From a virus: a stretch of 21,564 nt of DNA. Shown one piece after another: positions 5,131-21,561 of this stretch (its first letter is position 1; every line of letters starts with the position of its first letter). The stretch spans positions 1-21,564 of the IMG/VR virus record IMGVR_UViG_3300044639_001067. The stretch is one strand, 5' to 3'. The notes under the pieces were generated by a model, which was given only the letters and a program-made list of their open reading frames with translations, searched no databases and was not told the origin of the DNA. Position numbers and translations under genes: made by a program.

Positions 5131-5158
5131 AAAAATAGCACCCGTAGGTGCTATTTTT
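5131..5158. terminator. Intrinsic terminator between structural genes
   Basis: A perfect 12-bp inverted repeat (AAAAATAGCACC / GGTGCTATTTTT) with a four-base loop, flanked by A and T runs so it can work in either direction. It lies 13 bases past the stop of the gene at 5171-6139 and would end that minus-strand transcript. Confidence 0.85.
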
Positions 5159-5170
5159 AGTTGACTAAAA

Positions 5171-6139
5171 TTAGTCGTTTGTTGCTAGTTTTACTGAAGT
5201 ACTTGCTACTGCTGTATTCATAGTCCATATAACATGGCTATTAGCAGCAAATTCTGTACCAGGAGTACCTGTACCACCTGGGAACAACAATGCTGTTTGT
5301 CCTTCAAGTTTACCTACCCAATATGTACCACCTGCGCTATCACTAGCTTGGATAGTCATCTGTCCTGAGGCTAATGGACCACCAGCTGCTGTAATTTGTG
5401 CTACTGATGGGTTATTAGCATCTTCGTTACCGTTAATACCTGTTGGAACTAGGCGAACTGTGTCTGTGCCTTGGTTGTTGGTTACTTTGTAACGACGTGA
5501 ACCTTTTTGTGAAAGGATATCAGATACTCTACCGCTTGTGCCTGTTGAGATCCATGCATTGGCTTGGATTGTATTAGCTGTTGTGACTGCTGGAATAAGA
5601 ACTGGTAAAATATCACCTAAGCGACCAACGTCACCAAAACTAACAGGTGAACTGATAGCTGCTGTGTTGGCTGTAGACATTGTAATATTACCGCTTGCAA
5701 CATCAACGCTAACAACACGAGTTGGATTACCTAATGTGGTTGTAGTAAAGAACACGTTAGCAACCATACCTGCATAGATACCGCTGGTTACACCGCTTGA
5801 GAATTTAAATACTTTGCCTGCAATTTGAGTAAATCCATCAACCACAACATTACCTGGTTTATTGAATGTCACTGTTGGAACTGATGTATAGCCACTACCT
5901 GCTTCTGTAATAGTAGCAGTAGCAACGTTACCGTCACCTGGTGCATTATCTGCCGCTGCAACAAAAGTAATAGTAGCTGCCGCTGTTGTTCCACCAATTG
6001 GACTTGCACTAAAACTAATTGTAGTACCAGCTGAATAGCTATTAGCACCATTAACAGTCAACGAAGCAATACCTTCACCACCTGGTGATCCTGCACCGCC
6101 AGTGCCGTTAAAAAATCTTTCATTAATTGGACGTCCCAT
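5171..6139 (-). CDS. Virion structural protein with GxGY-type repeat (322 aa)
   Basis: The N-terminus contains a Gly-rich stretch (residues 11-24, GTGGAGSPGGEG). It is followed by a beta-rich region with GSGYTSVPTVTF at 81-92, a motif I associate with repetitive structural proteins of aquatic phages. The remainder alternates short Val/Thr strands with Gly/Asn turns, as in a fibre or baseplate-wedge decoration protein. The ribosome site is strong (AAGGAG, six bases before the ATG). A leader of about 80 bases separates the late box at 6220-6227 from the ATG and contains two small inverted repeats (6177-6190 and 6196-6209). A strong terminator follows, so the gene is probably transcribed on its own. 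Its exact place in the virion is unknown. Confidence 0.65.
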   Translation of the reverse strand: MGRPINERFFNGTGGAGSPGGEGIASLTVNGANSYSAGTTISFSASPIGGTTAAATITFVAAADNAPGDGNVATATITEAGSGYTSVPTVTFNKPGNVVVDGFTQIAGKVFKFSSGVTSGIYAGMVANVFFTTTTLGNPTRVVSVDVASGNITMSTANTAAISSPVSFGDVGRLGDILPVLIPAVTTANTIQANAWISTGTSGRVSDILSQKGSRRYKVTNNQGTDTVRLVPTGINGNEDANNPSVAQITAAGGPLASGQMTIQASDSAGGTYWVGKLEGQTALLFPGGTGTPGTEFAANSHVIWTMNTAVASTSVKLATND

Positions 6140-6219
6140 TTGTTTCTCCTTATATGTTATGGCGTTCTAGGCCTACGCGGTGGGGACCGCATAAACTCTC
6201 ATTTAAGAGCGAACAAGTA

Positions 6220-6227
6220 TATTTATC
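6220..6227 (-). promoter_or_regulatory. Late-type promoter box GATAAATA
   Basis: The minus strand reads GATAAATA, the only late-type box between the divergent genes at 6139 (minus) and 6289 (plus). It lies six bases from the -35 hexamer of the oppositely directed sigma70 promoter, so late and early promoters sit side by side. Confidence 0.5.
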
Positions 6228-6232
6228 GTAAC

Positions 6233-6261
6233 TTGACTTTTTAACTGAAAGATAGTATAAT
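6233..6261 (+). promoter_or_regulatory. Near-consensus sigma70 promoter
   Basis: TTGACT (6233-6238) and TATAAT (6256-6261) are separated by 17 bases, which is the host housekeeping sigma-factor pattern. The start of transcription would be near 6268, giving a leader of about 20 bases with AAGGGGAG (6277-6284) ahead of the ATG at 6289. It would be active immediately after infection, unlike the late boxes used by the surrounding genes. Confidence 0.85.
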
Positions 6262-6288
6262 AGCTATTCATTTGTTAAGGGGAGTTGT

Positions 6289-7125
6289 ATGACTATGTAC
6301 AAGGGTGAACAGGTAACTGCTATGATTGGTGTGGCTAAGGCGCACAATGGCAGGTTTATTAATAATTTTTACATTGACGTTAACTTTATTGACATTGCAC
6401 TACGTGATGATGGTTTGATTAAATTTTGTAACAAGGATGCTACTGCTGAAAGTGTTATTAGCTATGCATTTAACGAGGCTGTACGTAGTTTATGTAGAAG
6501 CGACTACATGGACAAATTTTCTGCTGATGAATTTGTTGTTATTAATGAATACTACAAAGGCACTACTAAGAAACATGCTGAATTATTTGCTAACAGTGTT
6601 AAGGAAGGTACAGCACAGGTAGGATTTGACTGTAGGTATGCTAATATTACATTTGGCAACGGACACAGCGACTTTATTAAATGGAACATGGCAGTTAATA
6701 GACTGGGTGCTAATTATTTGTACTTATACAACGATTGGGGTACTACAGAACGCATAGCACATGAGACTAGGTTATATGGTGATGCTATGACTAGTGCTGA
6801 TAAGTTAACAGGTTGGCTGTGTACATGGCATGGTTTTACTAGAGCCTTAGATGACTACGATGTAGTTACTACTAGTGAACTTAATGCGATTATACGCAAA
6901 CGTCCTAAACTTGTAGGTGACAGATTAGTTAAGCGTGGTATAAGTGAATATGATGTTGAAACTGAAGCTAAGATTGAAAATATTGTAGAAGCATTGCGCA
7001 CTGAATTTGATAATGAAAGTTTAAAACAAACAGGTGCATTTATTAGCAAGGCTACATTTAATTGGCTTAAAGAGGAGCTTACAGAAGCAGTTACTAAAAG
7101 TGCAAACTATAAAATACTACACTAA
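6289..7125 (+). CDS. Unrecognised protein, probable early gene (278 aa)
   Basis: A soluble-looking protein with mixed charge and many aromatic residues. It has no signal peptide, membrane segment or motif I can assign. Visible points are an aromatic-rich middle (residues 125-190, with NYLYLYNDWG and WLCTWHG) and a charged, helix-prone C-terminal third (about 200-275). The start is fixed by AAGGGGAG, five bases before the ATG; the second ATG two codons on is less well spaced. It is the first gene behind a near-consensus sigma70 promoter and is followed by a second small gene and a terminator. This makes an isolated plus-strand pair inside minus-strand late genes. A role in early host modification is a guess from position and promoter type only. 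Confidence 0.7.
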   Translation: MTMYKGEQVTAMIGVAKAHNGRFINNFYIDVNFIDIALRDDGLIKFCNKDATAESVISYAFNEAVRSLCRSDYMDKFSADEFVVINEYYKGTTKKHAELFANSVKEGTAQVGFDCRYANITFGNGHSDFIKWNMAVNRLGANYLYLYNDWGTTERIAHETRLYGDAMTSADKLTGWLCTWHGFTRALDDYDVVTTSELNAIIRKRPKLVGDRLVKRGISEYDVETEAKIENIVEALRTEFDNESLKQTGAFISKATFNWLKEELTEAVTKSANYKILH

Positions 7126-7135
7126 GGAGATGGCT

Positions 7136-7375
7136 ATGAGCAAATATACAAAAATTGAACGTAGATTAGTTGATGGTAGAATTATTAGGCGTGATACTAA
7201 TAAAATTGACACTAAGATGGAAGATATTATTAGTAAACTTGCGGCTAAGTTGCTGTGGGATTTAGATGAGTTGTGTTACGAAAATTTAAATGGCGCACAG
7301 CTAACAGACAATAAATCTCATAAGATGTACGAAAAACTTACCTCAAGATTAACTAGGGCAGTGTGTACTAGTTAA
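7136..7375 (+). CDS. Small unrecognised protein, probable early gene (79 aa)
   Basis: A 79-residue, strongly basic N-terminal protein (MSKYTKIERRLVDGRIIRRD) followed by a helix-prone C-terminal half. No membrane segment or known motif is visible. ATG at 7136 is chosen because AAGGAG (7124-7129) lies six bases before it. The ATG at 7130 abuts that site with no spacing, and an in-frame start far upstream at 7034 would overlap the previous gene by about 90 bases. The ribosome site overlaps the stop codon of the 278-residue gene, so the two are surely co-transcribed and probably translationally coupled. Small basic early proteins in phages often bind host proteins or nucleic acid, but nothing here shows which. 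Confidence 0.7.
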   Translation: MSKYTKIERRLVDGRIIRRDTNKIDTKMEDIISKLAAKLLWDLDELCYENLNGAQLTDNKSHKMYEKLTSRLTRAVCTS

Positions 7376-7390
7376 TAAATTTAGTCAACA

Positions 7391-7414
7391 AAAAAGCCCC
7401 TTGCGGGGCTTTTT
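7391..7414. terminator. Strong bidirectional intrinsic terminator
   Basis: A perfect 10-bp inverted repeat (AAAAAGCCCC / GGGGCTTTTT) with a TTGC loop lies between the converging 79-residue gene (ends 7375) and gp23 (ends 7442). It has a T run in both directions and so would end both the early plus-strand transcript and the late capsid transcript. Confidence 0.93.
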
Positions 7415-7441
7415 CTTATCGATACCTTTAAGGTTTTAATC

Positions 7442-8611
7442 TTATTGGAATGATAGGTTAGAAACACCAATACTTTCTAAGTAGTCAGCTGCGTTACCTA
7501 GAGATGAAGCAGTGTTTGTAAGTTCAGCATAACCATAACGTGTCATGAAACCTACTACTGGTTCAAATGTATTTGGATCTAATACAACACCGCTAGACAT
7601 TAGAGGCACGTATGGGCAATAGAACGCAGCTGCATCAGCTTCGCTAGAACCTTTGTAACCTACTAACACTGAAGTACCTGTACCAGCATAGCTGTTTACA
7701 TAGATCTTCATGGCGTTGTTTAAAGTACCAACTAGTTTTGTGTTAGTCGGAGCTTCAAACGTACCTTCTGTTGTACGTGCAAAAGCTGAAGTAGTTGCAG
7801 ATTGCAATACTGTCAATGCTTCTGGACTTACAACTGCCCAGTTAGCTGCACCACGACGTGTACGTTGAGCGATCAAGTTAGCTGCGCGGTTAATTAAAAC
7901 AGCAAGAGCAGCGTGCTCGTCACCTACGAATGTAGCAGTACCAGATACTGTAGCTTGGTTGTAGTTGTATGTGTTACCAGAAAGAGCAGCTAAACTAGCT
8001 AAAATTTCTTGGTCAATTTCAACTGTGATTTCTTGTGCCAATGCAGCCATAATTTCAGCTTCAACATCTAAACCGTGCATAGATTGTGCATCTTGCGCAG
8101 CTTCAAATGTCCAACGTGCAGACAATTTACGTGTTTTTGCTTCAACTACTTGTTTCAAGATTTGAACGTTAATACGGTTACCTGGAGTACCTTCTAGTGT
8201 GCTTGTTGAAGCAGCTTTACCAGCAGTTGTACCAGAGTATGCAGTAGCGATCTTGAATGGACTTAATGCCTCGTCACCACCTACTGTGCTGTCGCCTGAT
8301 GTAGCTGTAACTTGATCAGCATAACGTACACGTAGAGTGTGAATTTGAGCCACTGGGCCAGTCATTGGTTGTACACCAACGATTTCGTTCGCAATAACTG
8401 TCGGCATTACACGACGGATTACCGGAAGAATAACGCGGTTTAATGTAGCTACGTTACCAACAGCAGTAGCGCCACTGGTTGCAGTTTCCATCAAGTGTTT
8501 CTTAGTATTTTCTAAAATTACTGCCATTGTGGTTCTTTTAGAACCTTGTAGACCTTCTAACAGGGCGTCTTTGGTCTCGTTCCAACGGCCTTCTAATAGT
8601 TGGGTTGTCAT
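7442..8611 (-). CDS. 23: Major capsid protein, T4 gp23 family
   Basis: This protein forms the hexameric shell of the head. Residues 58-95 (RVILPVIRRVMPTVIANEIV, then GVQPMTGPVAQIHTLRVRYA) are the conserved gp23 block, and RWTFEAAQDAQSMHGLDVEAE (core) and AEIMAALAQEITVEIDQEIL follow. At 389 residues it is much shorter than T4 gp23 (521). The shortening suits the compact version without the insertion domain seen in many aquatic T4-like phages. Possible gp21 cleavage sites of the (I/L)xE type lie in the N-terminus after residues 19, 34 and 42; cleavage after E42 would leave a mature chain beginning TATSGATA. The ribosome site is AAGG in an A-rich leader. It follows gp22 by 30 bases and ends before a strong terminator. 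Confidence 0.97.
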   Translation of the reverse strand: MTTQLLEGRWNETKDALLEGLQGSKRTTMAVILENTKKHLMETATSGATAVGNVATLNRVILPVIRRVMPTVIANEIVGVQPMTGPVAQIHTLRVRYADQVTATSGDSTVGGDEALSPFKIATAYSGTTAGKAASTSTLEGTPGNRINVQILKQVVEAKTRKLSARWTFEAAQDAQSMHGLDVEAEIMAALAQEITVEIDQEILASLAALSGNTYNYNQATVSGTATFVGDEHAALAVLINRAANLIAQRTRRGAANWAVVSPEALTVLQSATTSAFARTTEGTFEAPTNTKLVGTLNNAMKIYVNSYAGTGTSVLVGYKGSSEADAAAFYCPYVPLMSSGVVLDPNTFEPVVGFMTRYGYAELTNTASSLGNAADYLESIGVSNLSFQ

Positions 8612-8641: not shown

Positions 8642-9739
8642 CTATTTTAGCCCTGCTAAACGTTTGATATCGATGACATTGTCATCGTTCTCAATTACGT
8701 CAATTTTAGCAGATTTATCACCTGTCACTTCTTTACGACTTTCAGCAATCATCACTTTATCGGCTTTGACTGTTGGTGCGTTGTTTAGAACTGCTGGTAG
8801 ATATTTATCGTATGCAGCTTGTAGTCTTTCTGTCTGCACACTCTCAAGAAGACTGATCATTACTTCAGCTTTCTCTTTGTTTAATGGTTTTAATAACTCG
8901 TTCATTTTCTCTTTACGAGAAATGCTTTCGTTAATAACTCGAACTTCACGGTTCTTAGTTTCAACTAATGCTTCTTTTTCTGCAATAACTTGTTTGCTTT
9001 CTGCTAATTGTTTTTCTTTCTTAGCAAGAGTAGCTTGAAGTTTAGCGAATTCTTTGTTCTCATTTAAATGAGTTACAGCAAATTCAGCTGCGTATGCTTC
9101 AAATAAGCGACGACCAAACATGTTCTCACGAGCAGTTTGAATATCTTCTTTTAGTTGAGCTAATTCAGACCCTAGGTTTTGTGCTACTGCTTCTTTAACA
9201 AGACCCGCACTGCGTTTTACGAATGCACTTTGTAGTTCAGCTAGTTTTGATTTAGCTTCAGCAACAAGTTTAACTTTCGTTTCAACTACAGCTTGTTTGT
9301 CTTGCTCAAACTCTTTAATTTCTTCAGCCAACGCATGGATAACAAATTTTTCTAACTTAGCTACTGCTTCGTTTTGAACTTTTTTATCTGTACGTAGTTC
9401 TTGGATTTCTTCAGCTAATTTAGTAACCATAAAGTTATTAAATTTGCCTGAGCTTTCAACCATATGACGTTTAAATTTCACACGGTCTTCTGCTAGAGCT
9501 TGTTTCTCACTGGCGAACTCTTTAAGTTCAGCAGTAAGACTTTCAGTAACCATCTTGTCTAGAGCTTCAACCATTACTTGTTTGTCGTGACTATAGCGTG
9601 TCGCAAATTCTTCACGCAATTCAGCGCGAATAGTTTCACGAGCTTCATTAATTTGGCTAGCCCAAGCTTCTGTAATAGCAGTTTGGGTTGTCTCATTAAT
9701 GATACCAGAATCTAACAATGGTTTGATAGCGTCTAACAT
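8642..9739 (-). CDS. 22: Prohead scaffold (core) protein, T4 gp22 family
   Basis: The protein is almost entirely alpha-helical and charged, with long coiled-coil stretches (about residues 25-195 and 235-285). It has no Trp-rich or enzymatic features after the first helix. The segment ENMFGRRLFEAYAAEF (about 211-226) is typical of gp22 of T4-like phages. The scaffold fills the prohead and directs gp23 assembly, then is degraded by gp21. The 365-residue length exceeds T4 gp22 (269) but fits aquatic relatives. The C-terminal tail (DVIENDDNVIDIKRLAGLK) is acidic and then basic. A good AGGAG ribosome site sits eight bases before the ATG. It is placed between gp21 and gp23, exactly as in T4. A GATAAATA box occurs inside it, about 200 bases before gp23. 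Confidence 0.9.
   Translation of the reverse strand: MLDAIKPLLDSGIINETTQTAITEAWASQINEARETIRAELREEFATRYSHDKQVMVEALDKMVTESLTAELKEFASEKQALAEDRVKFKRHMVESSGKFNNFMVTKLAEEIQELRTDKKVQNEAVAKLEKFVIHALAEEIKEFEQDKQAVVETKVKLVAEAKSKLAELQSAFVKRSAGLVKEAVAQNLGSELAQLKEDIQTARENMFGRRLFEAYAAEFAVTHLNENKEFAKLQATLAKKEKQLAESKQVIAEKEALVETKNREVRVINESISRKEKMNELLKPLNKEKAEVMISLLESVQTERLQAAYDKYLPAVLNNAPTVKADKVMIAESRKEVTGDKSAKIDVIENDDNVIDIKRLAGLK
8812..8819 (-). promoter_or_regulatory. Possible internal late promoter for gp23
   Basis: GATAAATA on the minus strand lies inside the gp22 coding sequence (in codons for YDKYLP), about 200 bases upstream of gp23. It could supply extra gp23 transcript. It may also be a chance match in AT-rich coding DNA. 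Confidence 0.3.
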
Positions 9740-9748
9740 TCTGATCTC

Positions 9749-10390
9749 CTATTTTAATTTTAAATCTTTGATTAGGCTTAATACGCCTTCTCTTAGATAT
9801 TTCTGTACTTTTTGATCTGCACTGGCTTCTTTTGCCATTTCGAATACCTTGGCGCCACCACGCATATTCATCAGTCCTTCGTAAATCGCTGTTGGATATG
9901 CATTAGGAGCACTAGGTTGTGCAACTACATCTACAGTGACTATTTCAAAGTCACTGACTTTACCGTCACCCTCATTCACGTTTCCGCTACCACGAGAGCT
10001 AACGCCAAGTTTTACACCCGATTCCAACATAGTCTGAACTAACTGACCCATTGGAGTAGGTAAAATCTTTAATTTGCCAAAGCCATTAGGACCATCCATC
10101 CACATATCTGTAATCATGTGGCTTACACGGTCTAAGTTAATTTTCAAATCATCAGGGTGATCTACTTCGCCTAAAACGCTGTAGCCACCCTTGATTTGTT
10201 CATTTAACGTAGAAACGGCTTTCTCAATTTCATTTACAGGGTACACACGCTCATTGTGATTACGTACACCACCTTGAATGAATATACCTTTCATATAACA
10301 TGACTTGCCTTTGCCATCAGGAGCACTTTCAGTTAAGAACTCTATTCTAGCTGCATCGTATGTTAAGTTTTCTTTAAGGTATAAAGCCAT
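9749..10390 (-). CDS. 21: Prohead core protease, T4 gp21 family
   Basis: The serine protease that matures the prohead by cutting gp22, gp23, gp68 and similar proteins at (I/L)xE sites. The family blocks are clear: GEVDHPDDLKINLDRVSHMI (residues 74-93) with the catalytic His candidate H78, GVSSRGSGN (129-137) with Ser candidate S131 or S132, and VTVDVVAQPSAPNAYP (151-166) with a conserved Asp (D154). The length of 213 residues is close to T4 gp21 (212). An AGGA ribosome site precedes the ATG. It sits 13 bases after gp68 and nine bases before gp22, in T4 order. Assigning individual residues to the triad is inference by analogy. Confidence 0.95.
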   Translation of the reverse strand: MALYLKENLTYDAARIEFLTESAPDGKGKSCYMKGIFIQGGVRNHNERVYPVNEIEKAVSTLNEQIKGGYSVLGEVDHPDDLKINLDRVSHMITDMWMDGPNGFGKLKILPTPMGQLVQTMLESGVKLGVSSRGSGNVNEGDGKVSDFEIVTVDVVAQPSAPNAYPTAIYEGLMNMRGGAKVFEMAKEASADQKVQKYLREGVLSLIKDLKLK

Positions 10391-17949: not shown

Positions 17950-18384
17950 TTACTTTGTAATTTTTAAATCTTTTACGGAATTTTTACCAAGTTTTAATTG
18001 AATAATGCCGTTGTAGTTGTTTTCACGCAACAAGACATCTTCCTTAAATTGGTAATAGGCTTCCAAGTAATTAGTTTCGCCTCTTGAGCTACACAGATGT
18101 ATAATCTCACGAGTAAATTTCTCTTTGCCTAGTTGCTCAATATCTTCTATTAAGCGGTGTGATGAGCCCCAATAATCTTTCCAGTCTGTTTCTATGACTT
18201 CGTGTCGTTTATTTTTCTTGCCTTTTAGAGGTGGTCTCTTTTTGATGGTAGTAAAGTACTTGCGGCCAATATAATCATGACCATTTGTTGTGTTGGTTAT
18301 TCTATATATAAAGCCATAATAGGTTTGAATATCCTCAGAGTCAAATATTACACCATTGTACGTCCAAGGATATTCATATGCCAT
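17950..18384 (-). CDS. GIY-YIG endonuclease, SegE-like
   Basis: A 144-residue single-domain nuclease. GFIYRITN (residues 24-31) and YIGRKYF (38-44) form the GIY-YIG pair with the conserved Arg R41. DYWGSSHRLIEDIEQLGKEKF (70-90) and NYLEAYYQF (105-113) with the metal-binding Glu candidate E108 complete the fold. Such proteins are widespread in aquatic T4-like phages and related to T4 Seg homing nucleases, but here no extra DNA-binding domain or intron is seen. The ATG lies eight bases after the upstream stop, and an AATAAATA box falls in that short region (18390-18397). The stop is directly followed by the candidate RNA on the same strand. The function may be mobility or host-DNA cutting, and sequence cannot separate these. 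Confidence 0.75.
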   Translation of the reverse strand: MAYEYPWTYNGVIFDSEDIQTYYGFIYRITNTTNGHDYIGRKYFTTIKKRPPLKGKKNKRHEVIETDWKDYWGSSHRLIEDIEQLGKEKFTREIIHLCSSRGETNYLEAYYQFKEDVLLRENNYNGIIQLKLGKNSVKDLKITK

Positions 18385-18775: not shown

Positions 18776-19792
18776 TTACCATTCTGTTGCGTACGATTGA
18801 TTTACCACTGCTTTATTACATTTAGTCCTACATTCCGACCTGGAGAAAATTTCAAACTCTTCTCGCCAAAATTCGTCAGTTAAGACCTCATTTAATGATC
18901 TTTGATTAAGATCGAACTGCTTTTTGCTTACATCTAACCACTCGTTGTTGTGTGCGTATCTATTTGCCACCCAACAGCAGGGAAACAAATGTCCTTGACT
19001 ATTAACAAATAGCCCTTTATTGCCAATACTACACAACGGAGTTACTTTGCCAAACGTAATCGCTTGGTTATATAATTTTAAATTAGTTTTTGCACCAATG
19101 GTGCTTTCTCTACGTTCGTTAAAATGGGTAAACACACGTTGAAATCTGTGGTCACTACTAATTAACTCGTCTCTAGGCTGCAGCGAGTCGCCTTCTGGGT
19201 ATATACTATATACTTTATGGAACTTTGTACTTAAAGTCAACTGAAATTGATCAAATCCTAGTTCTTTAGCCAACAGCTTCATATCTTCTAGCTTATCTTG
19301 ATTAAAACTAAAAGCAATGGCATCCCAGGTCATATAAACATGGCTACTTCCACGCAAAGTAGTAATGCCTTGTATGATACTAGCCCAATCGCTGTTTACA
19401 CGATACTGCTCGTTGCTGGCTTGATCCCATCCGTCTAAACTAAAGTGTACATGATCGTCTTGATCTAATGTCTGACCTAGTCTACTCCACCAATCTATAT
19501 TCTTATAGCTACCATTGGTAACAATAACAAACTTAACTGGCTTTATACTTTTAATATATTCAATGACATCTATTAGATCATGCGCATAGATAGGATCACC
19601 ATCGTCACCACAGAATGTAATCTTTTCTACATTAGACAGTATAAACTCTGGAGTAAAGTTCTTTTTAAAGAACTCTAACCGTAATTCTGTATTGACTAAA
19701 GTATCGGGCACTTCTGTGCGAGCACAACGCAGGCACTTTAATGTACACTTGCTAGATATCTCAATGTGCCAATGCCAGGTTGCTAGTTTCAT
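18776..19792 (-). CDS. Radical SAM enzyme with SPASM-type C-terminus (338 aa)
   Basis: CTLKCLRC at 16-23 gives the CX3CX2C cluster site for the 4Fe-4S centre that cleaves S-adenosylmethionine. CGDDGDP (61-67), TNGS (92-95) and FSLDG (117-121) fit the core barrel motifs. The C-terminal part has C254, then C272-C273 in PCCWVANRY, then C321 and C325. This matches a SPASM or twitch auxiliary-cluster region, as in enzymes that modify peptides or proteins. The ATG overlaps the gp46 stop (ATGA), so the two are co-translated. Substrate unknown. Possible targets are a phage or host protein, or a small peptide. Two short genes follow directly, but they lack Cys and look like basic phage proteins. Confidence 0.85.
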   Translation of the reverse strand: MKLATWHWHIEISSKCTLKCLRCARTEVPDTLVNTELRLEFFKKNFTPEFILSNVEKITFCGDDGDPIYAHDLIDVIEYIKSIKPVKFVIVTNGSYKNIDWWSRLGQTLDQDDHVHFSLDGWDQASNEQYRVNSDWASIIQGITTLRGSSHVYMTWDAIAFSFNQDKLEDMKLLAKELGFDQFQLTLSTKFHKVYSIYPEGDSLQPRDELISSDHRFQRVFTHFNERRESTIGAKTNLKLYNQAITFGKVTPLCSIGNKGLFVNSQGHLFPCCWVANRYAHNNEWLDVSKKQFDLNQRSLNEVLTDEFWREEFEIFSRSECRTKCNKAVVNQSYATEW

Positions 19793-21561
19793 TTTACTTC
19801 TACATCATTGTTATAGGTTGTAAACCCATTTTCTTTTACCACAGTTAAAATATTGTTCACACGACCAGCAAGTTCATCTTTATGCGACACTAACCAAATA
19901 GATTTGTTATTCTCTCTAGTCATTTTCTTAAGGATAGCTAAGGCATTTTCAACACCTGAAGTATCCATGCCCGAATCGACGAGCTCATCAATAAACAATA
20001 AGTTAATTGGTTGATATAAACTTTCCCATACATCACGGAATGCCCATGACAAGCTAAGGATAAGTCTATTACGTTCACCACGGCTCAAGTTATCAAAGTC
20101 TAACTCTCGTCCCAGTTCTTGTATTTCTACACTTAGATCGTTTAGGAACTTAACAGAGTGCGGTAAGCCAATCTTATCTAAGTAGTATCCTAGGCGTGCG
20201 TTTAAGTAGCTTAGGTTTTGGTCAATAATACGTTTACGTATAAATGAATCTTTGTTTGTTAATAGTTTCAATAAAAACTCTTGATGCTCTTTAACACGCA
20301 TTAGTTTATTCATTACAGCATAATCAATTTCAGCCAGGGCTGTGGTCTTCATTTCCTCAATCTGTTCATCGTAAGGATCAGTTTCGGCAATCTTACCTGC
20401 TAATTGCCCTTGCAAACTCGCCACAGTACTACGGTGATGGATTGCATCTTCTTCTTTATCGTAGAATACTTTTGGTTGTTGACCTAATTCACCTAATTCT
20501 TGTTTAGCTATTGTTAACGCTTGTAGATCTGTTTCGTGCTGGGTATGCAACGTTTGTACTTCACGTAAGCTGATTTCTTTAACTCCTAACATCTCTGAGT
20601 GCTTGTCGTCGTGTAGATCTTGTCCACAGCTACTACATTTATGATCTCGCAGTAACGCAATGTCGGCTTCTACCTTCTGTATATTTTTAGTTTCGCGGGT
20701 TAGGTCTTGATCAGCACGCAGTATCGCCTTATCTAAGTCGGCAATGTCTTTACGTGTTTGATTGTAAGTAGTCAATGCCTTGTGTGCTGCAATTTCTGTA
20801 TCAATATCAAGCTCTAATAAATTATCTAGTGCAGTTTGTAGTTTGCTTACATCTTCTGTGTGTTTGGTAGTCCACAAGTTTTGTCGACGTTTTAGGCTCT
20901 CAATTTGCTCTTGAATACGGCCATTTGCGTCAGTTATGGCCTTAATATTGAACTCTTCTTGCTGAATTGCATCCTTAGTAGCCTTACCCTGCTCTTTCAG
21001 CGAATCTGCCTTTTCACTTAATAATGTAATACCAAGTAGTTGTTCGATAATAGTACGTTGATCGTTGGCCTTAAGACTTAAGAACGGCTCAGTGTAGGTA
21101 TTAAGTGCTACAATATGTTTAAACATATCATGGCTCATACCTAGCAAGCGTTCAATTTCGGCTTGCGTTTCACGGCTATCGCCTTGGCTGTTATCATCCT
21201 TGGCTTCTTGTTCTTGTTCGCCGATATAGAATTTAAGTACATTTGACTTACGACCGCGTTCGATACGATAACTTTCTCCATTCACTTCGAAGTCGATGGT
21301 AACCAACATGCCTTTGGCATTAGTTTTATTAATTAAGTTATCTTTTTTAATATTTGTAAGTGCTGTGCCATATAAGCCGTACGACAATGCGTTAATGATA
21401 GTAGTCTTGCCTGTACCATTGCGTGCCCCGCTGTCGTCTCCACCTAAGTCAATGTTCTCGCCTAAGACCAAAGTTAGGTCTTGACGATCAAACTCAACGG
21501 CTTGTGTAGCATTGCCCACGCTCATAAAGTTGCGTACTGTTAAATTCTTTATTTTAAACAT
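19789..21561 (-). CDS. 46: Recombination endonuclease subunit, T4 gp46 (Rad50/SbcC-like)
   Basis: The ATPase partner of gp47 in the exonuclease that resects DNA ends for recombination-dependent replication. The Walker A region is SGARNGTGKTT (44-54). A long coiled coil (about 180-400) is interrupted by a zinc hook, CSSC (309-312). The ABC signature LSRGERNRL is at 492-500, Walker B LLFIDE at 521-526, the D-loop at 529-533 and the switch His at H560. The length of 590 is close to T4 gp46 (560). The whole gene is present, with the ATG three bases from the window end. gp47 would be expected just beyond the right edge. It heads the minus-strand gene row 46, radical SAM, two small proteins, GIY-YIG nuclease. 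Confidence 0.97.
   Translation of the reverse strand: MFKIKNLTVRNFMSVGNATQAVEFDRQDLTLVLGENIDLGGDDSGARNGTGKTTIINALSYGLYGTALTNIKKDNLINKTNAKGMLVTIDFEVNGESYRIERGRKSNVLKFYIGEQEQEAKDDNSQGDSRETQAEIERLLGMSHDMFKHIVALNTYTEPFLSLKANDQRTIIEQLLGITLLSEKADSLKEQGKATKDAIQQEEFNIKAITDANGRIQEQIESLKRRQNLWTTKHTEDVSKLQTALDNLLELDIDTEIAAHKALTTYNQTRKDIADLDKAILRADQDLTRETKNIQKVEADIALLRDHKCSSCGQDLHDDKHSEMLGVKEISLREVQTLHTQHETDLQALTIAKQELGELGQQPKVFYDKEEDAIHHRSTVASLQGQLAGKIAETDPYDEQIEEMKTTALAEIDYAVMNKLMRVKEHQEFLLKLLTNKDSFIRKRIIDQNLSYLNARLGYYLDKIGLPHSVKFLNDLSVEIQELGRELDFDNLSRGERNRLILSLSWAFRDVWESLYQPINLLFIDELVDSGMDTSGVENALAILKKMTRENNKSIWLVSHKDELAGRVNNILTVVKENGFTTYNNDVEVK

Follow-up and report, generated by a model that had tools for sequence, protein, structure and literature searches.

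Two genes of the plus strand, ORF A and ORF B, lie behind an early-type promoter among late minus-strand genes, directly beside the major capsid gene gp23 of a T4-like phage. What are such genes doing at this place? The stretch analyzed (called here the window) is 21,564 nt long and covers positions 1 to 21,564 of the IMG/VR virus record IMGVR_UViG_3300044639_001067. The phage is large and related to jumbo phages. The best 20 of 2486 named-phage gp23 records are jumbo phages, including Phosso, Vibrio 2.275.O, and PA5oct, with 63-68% identity, and gp23 identity is 75-98% across at least 80 metagenome relatives. The site between gp23 and the next late gene is probably a slot in which early genes are swapped, with ORFs A and B as one occupant.

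Anatomy of the cassette and its borders

Table 1. Features of the gp23 region, with positions in the window
Feature	Position	Strand	Remarks	Score
Late structural-type gene	5171..6139	-	322 aa; behind the predicted freshwater-2 leader	
Freshwater-2 RNA (RF02980)	6137..6210	-	predicted 5' leader of 5171-6139; one border of the proposed slot	Rfam 51.8 bits (gathering 49.9)
Late promoter box GATAAATA	6220..6227	-	ahead of 5171-6139	
Putative early sigma70-type promoter, TTGACT-17-TATAAT	6233..6261	+	divergent to the late box, 5-nt gap	
ORF A	6289..7125	+	278 aa, pI 5.8, without family	
ORF B	7136..7375	+	79 aa, basic, pI 9.2, weak matches only	
Predicted two-way hairpin terminator	7391..7414	both	common to gp23	
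gp23, major capsid protein	7442..8611	-	other border of the proposed slot	Pfam Gp23 6.7e-97; PHROG major head protein 2e-98

The first-pass annotation proposed an early-type, plus-strand cassette of two genes amid late minus-strand genes, and this is supported. The promoter, both ORFs, the overlap of a stop codon with a ribosome site, and the hairpin were all recovered as claimed (Table 1), neither product has a recognizable family, and the region is variable among relatives. ORF A is preceded by a ribosome site, and that of ORF B (AAGGAG) overlaps the ORF A stop codon (TAA, 7123-7125). Codon use of ORF A is coding-like in its own frame alone (+0.29; the five other frames score -0.37 to -2.2). 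It is weaker in ORF B (-0.05 against -0.49 to -2.0 in the other frames), where the score resembles those of two window genes having family matches.

The promoter matches 11 of the 12 consensus bases and appears to be of the strong sigma70 early type. It is not beyond chance by sequence alone: the window has two sites with at least 11 of 12 matches (the second one at 19047), where 100 dinucleotide shuffles average 0.83. It is credible because of its position and its conservation in relatives, where a near-identical promoter precedes other cargo. The pattern TTGACTTTT-N9-GATAGTATAAT is found in 64 viral stretches. Seventeen of these are at the gp23 slot of relatives or in copies of the cassette (one of the 17 contigs, L131, stops before reaching gp23); the DNA examined for the remaining 47 has no gp23 match.

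Late boxes had been claimed on both sides of the cassette. The box ahead of 5171-6139 is present; by its consensus, we take GATAAATA to be of the T4 gp55 type. Similar boxes precede other structural genes of the window. For gp23 the claim is not confirmed: this gene starts 30 nt behind 8642-9739, and NATAAATA is absent directly upstream of it. PHROG weakly links the product of 5171-6139 with a virion structural protein (0.0016) and with a connector (0.03), and homologues of the gene are found near gp23 in relatives.

The hairpin at 7391-7414 folds on both strands (-15.0 and -19.8 kcal/mol, z -4.0 and -4.6). It was not listed by the terminator scan, we think because its T run lies inside the stem. 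Four relatives (L006-L009, gp23 88-96% identical) have no cassette. In these, the end of gp23, a similar hairpin, a late box (CGATAAATA, in L009 CTATAAATA), and the next gene, a homologue of the 322-aa gene, follow one another within about 165 nt. Since hairpin and late box already exist where the cassette is missing, the insert would start near 6233 and end near 7376. The cassette seems to borrow the two-way terminator of gp23, the hairpin being no part of the insert. The unit had also been called self-contained. This description has to be given up, as its terminator goes with gp23 and its promoter forms a pair with the neighbor's late promoter.

In another relative (L005) the hairpin behind gp23 is a different one and resembles the window hairpin at 5131-5158 (38 nt at 95%). 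A near-identical AAAAATAGCACC hairpin terminator is found at the end of one late unit in the window (5131-5158) and behind gp23 in L005 (11192-11229), as if terminators too were swapped.

ORF A has no credible match in Pfam (best 0.14), PHROGs (0.089), or PDB (0.88), and none at all in NCBIfam and PADLOC. A search against 50,697 phage records gave two matches only, with E values of 6 and 10. Among viral contigs, peptide patterns, which reach close relatives only, recover ORF A in L003 and L004; among genome contigs they give 14 matches, none of them a relative. Structure prediction, run without homologues, gave an unusable model of ORF A (pLDDT 33.6). Within residues 12-73, ORF B has weak matches to phrog_506, a transposase family (7e-4), and to a Cas12f model (0.029). 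These perhaps reflect only a basic helical stretch, and the same libraries hold no other credible homologue of ORF B.

A role in host takeover or anti-defense, raised in the first-pass annotation, is possible from the position and the promoter type. No credible homologue of known anti-defense or host-takeover proteins was found for either product, PADLOC models being for defense and not for anti-defense. A toxin-antitoxin-like or protein-inhibitor pair, directed against the host or its defenses, would also consist of neighboring genes behind an early-type promoter, the stop of one overlapping the ribosome site of the next, one with an acidic and one with a small basic product. Here, however, the larger gene comes first, and neither a toxin nor an antitoxin family is matched. 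We regard such a pair as quite unlikely. Location among virion genes could suggest that A or B is a late-expressed virion component. That is hardly credible for genes which are on the opposite strand with no NATAAATA ahead of ORF A on the plus strand, are missing from the relatives with an empty slot, and match no structural family.

Occupants of the site beside gp23

The reading of the site as a slot for swappable early genes depends on what relatives carry there. In total, 118 gp23 loci gave 83 unique slots once duplicates and loci of insufficient sequence had been removed. The 66 slots having at least 1500 nt after gp23 were analyzed, and 17 shorter ones were excluded. Taking the first ORF of 80 aa or more, 22 of the 66 have it on the opposite strand and 41 on the same strand, and three have no such ORF; ORFs were called mechanically, and single cases may be wrong. 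The set of 83 is enriched for occupied slots, as two of the searches required the promoter or a family of 108-aa proteins. Among slots found by the gp23 search only (again at least 1500 nt), 7 of 51 begin with an opposite-strand ORF.

This 108-aa family is the cargo of the 17 slots with the promoter pattern, except for the two copies of the cassette (L003 and L004). A search with the family gave 25 loci, 24 of which adjoin gp23; in the other one the contig ends first. Its PHROG matches are weak (best 0.0076; two of five members), and structure prediction from 11 sequences is unusable (pLDDT 44.4). A relationship of ORF A or B to the family was rejected (hhalign probability 0.3%). Some slots have extra genes of 162, 58, 171, or 267 aa. 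The 267-aa product matches endonucleases (PHROG 1.1e-12) and has no Pfam match. GIY-YIG/NUMOD3 endonucleases are found on the gp23 strand in the slots of L010 and L054, and the slot of L164 carries an endonuclease. In PA5oct, gp328, annotated as a putative Hef-like homing endonuclease, comes directly after gp23.

Non-core accessory genes thus vary at this site between core genes, as they do in hyperplastic regions of T4, and the site looks like a changeable cargo slot. Opposite-strand genes of 340-386 aa were also seen between gp23 and the next late gene in L051, L053, L054, L065, and L067, the one in L065 having TPR and glycosyltransferase-9 similarity. These are possibly another class of cargo.

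Endonucleases in the same slot of three relatives, and by annotation in PA5oct, could mean that the cassette was carried by, or is left over from, an element of the homing-endonuclease or transposon type, with ORF B as a degraded TnpB-like piece. The matches of ORF B to the transposase family and Cas12f would fit, but they span a single stretch of about 60 residues. No nuclease family (GIY-YIG, HNH, or LAGLIDADG) was found in ORF A or B by Pfam, PHROG, and further profile searches, and the three copies of the cassette (window, L003, and L004) are intact and identical. Such an origin is very unlikely.

Some other genes of the window, all on the minus strand where a strand is given, are recorded here. 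A SegE-type GIY-YIG endonuclease gene is located near the structural cluster (17950-18384, -; Pfam 2.4e-37). It is followed by a gene for a 63-aa histone H1/Hc1-like phage protein (18393-18584, -; Pfam 6.8e-10) and one for a Radical SAM/SPASM-like protein near the curated cut-offs (18776-19792, -). The latter adjoins 19789-21561, which by eye presumably encodes a Rad50/gp46-type ATPase.

Swapping of slot contents between phages is suggested by pairs of contigs. L003 and the window have zero mismatches over 6203-7459 (1257 nt). Outside this tract, 493 of 4431 aligned positions differ (11%), and no other identical run exceeds 131 nt. The identical cassette is present in L004 as well, whose contig as a whole is 98% alike. 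L160 and L161 have 1804 nt of slot in common and gp23 ends differing by 11-13%; in L161 the identical tract extends to the contig end. The reverse is found in L094 and L141, which share the last 1200 nt of gp23 without a difference but not the slot contents. Empty, replaced, and identical-cassette cases together point to gene exchange at this element among relatives, with the caveat that short metagenome contigs behind these cases, above all L161, could be assembly chimeras.

Identities of gp23 and the 108-aa gene are not correlated (Mantel rho 0.00, 13 slots). This was dropped as proof of slot mobility, for control pairs of neighboring genes are also weakly correlated (gp23 with 8642-9739, rho 0.29, 12 loci; gp23 with 9749-10390, rho 0.05, 11 loci). 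The whole cluster seems to recombine, so that the Mantel test is not specific to the slot.

The divergent promoter pair and the freshwater-2 leader

The -35 hexamer of the early-type promoter (from 6233, +) begins 5 nt from the late box (6220-6227, -). The same 5-nt gap between GATAAATA and TTGAC is found in 10 slots: the window, L003, L004, L005, L092, L098, L115, L118, L141, and L156. These have seven distinct cargo sequences, and as six of the seven are from one family, the common gap may come partly from common descent. For this count, a loose pattern matched 22 of the 83 slots. Seven without GATAAATA were removed (L013, L039, L054, L060, L062, L072, and L081; equal spacing is seen in L039 and L072), and L021 was set aside (6 nt, poor -10). 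Four slots (L160, L161, L164, and L171) have an 8-nt gap and another promoter. L094 and L154 hold the 108-aa family without the 5-nt geometry.

Among 13 records searched, the pair of late box and TTGAC at 5 nt occurs at 10 sites in seven records, and the reversed-pattern control gave none. Six of these sites are at the gp23 slot, three lie 16-17 kb away, at a second site in the records of L005, L092, and L107 (L177, L178, and L179), and one is elsewhere. On the late side of the second site there is a virion structural gene, then a match to a tail sheath stabilizer (first 110 residues searched). The early-type side has small unknown genes, a gene of about 402 aa, and then a gene matching a head-tail adaptor. 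Being structural, this last gene speaks against an all-early plus side at the second site. In all three records, a separate GATAAATA lies about 30 nt upstream of the start of the head-tail adaptor gene, and the stretch from this gene to the early-type promoter contains no further NATAAATA.

The L005 record, 188.8 kb long, contains 13 matches to the promoter class TTGAC-N18-TATAAT (reversed control, 1). Seven of the 13 are in the 118-138 kb region among mostly small minus-strand genes, some of which, read by eye, we take to encode thymidylate synthase, dihydrofolate reductase, and SAM synthetase. TTCATTT behind the -10 was rejected as a general early leader; it occurs once each in two of eight records.

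One could also regard A and B as orphan genes of an ordinary kind under a host-like promoter, the slot and its 5-nt geometry being a mere tolerated insertion between transcription units. The promoter taken alone is within chance, the surrounding capsid genes recombine broadly anyway, and a geometry in common could be shared descent. Against this view, the gap is equal ahead of seven different cargo sequences and recurs among other genes at the second site, and we think the view unlikely.

The other border of the proposed swappable slot is marked by an RNA. The late transcript of 5171-6139 is predicted to start with a freshwater-2 RNA, its leader scoring over the cut-off of the family. At E <= 0.001 there is one freshwater-2 match per record in 16 of 17 related records, which were picked for holding gp23; 11 of the 17 are above the gathering cut-off. 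All 16 matches are downstream of gp23 on the same strand, 93 to 2730 nt away. No match was found in 14 control genomes, nor within 5 kb of gp23 in Phosso, Vibrio 2.275.O, and PA5oct (E <= 0.1). The literature searched gave no paper on the freshwater-2 RNA (RF02980).

Proposed working and comparison with known systems

The slot is bordered on one side by the terminator of gp23, which would act in both directions, and on the other by the late promoter with its freshwater-2 leader. Cargo such as A and B runs opposite to the late genes and follows an early promoter of the host (sigma70) type. From this arrangement we infer the following order of events. Right after infection, the host polymerase would transcribe ORFs A and B and stop at the hairpin common to gp23. 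Later, the phage late polymerase would occupy the late promoter. Judging by polymerase footprints in general, polymerases on promoters this close would exclude each other. The two enzymes would not fit side by side, and early cargo expression would be excluded during structural gene production. The cargo, presumably of accessory function, would be swapped between phages through recombination in the conserved borders.

A wider reading is offered tentatively, at somewhat less than even confidence. In a clade of large T4-like phages, the fixed divergent module (late box, 5 nt, and sigma70 -35) may switch expression from early to late in such a way that the two states exclude each other, and it may be reused at a second early/late boundary. 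At gp23, together with the freshwater-2 leader, it may form a plug-in slot which makes its cargo early and turns it off once the neighboring late gene is on.

If the proposed working is true, it explains how new early genes are taken up inside an essential late cluster with neither program harmed. Freshwater-2 RNA and gp23 would then be a search handle to collect early accessory genes, which are likely, though not proven, to supply host-takeover and counter-defense functions. The freshwater-2 RNA, for its part, gets a repeated genomic context within a phage clade.

Homing endonucleases are known beside essential phage genes (PMC10448857). The position directly after gp23, as in PA5oct, and the exchange of genes among phages are similar here, but the A/B cassette has no nuclease. 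In T4-like genomes, hyperplastic regions (HPRs) hold variable accessory genes between conserved core genes (PMC3797505). Unlike these broad regions, the present site is one small slot within the capsid gene cluster.

Another known system is the PeSL, reportedly described by Arbiol in 2010 and Comeau in 2014 (both cited in PMC4503421) as a mobile regulatory cassette of T4-type phages. A PeSL is defined by a stem-loop terminator directly joined to a promoter as one composite element. In PeSL cassettes, a sigma70-type early promoter and a stem-loop go with small accessory genes that shuffle between T4-like phages. The present cassette is alike in its apparently strong sigma70-type early promoter (in the same class as those of the L005 small-gene region) and, with the chimera caveat given above, in the exchange of genes among relatives. 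It differs in that the hairpin is 1.1 kb from the promoter, at the opposite end of the cargo, so that the two do not make one composite element. Also, the hairpin is that of gp23, and the promoter is paired with a divergent late promoter and a freshwater-2 leader. No description of this divergent geometry, or of the address which freshwater-2 gains here downstream of gp23 on the late strand, was found in the literature searched. The best reading is that the slot is related to the HPR and PeSL modules of T4-type phages and differs from them by its divergent pair of early and late promoters.
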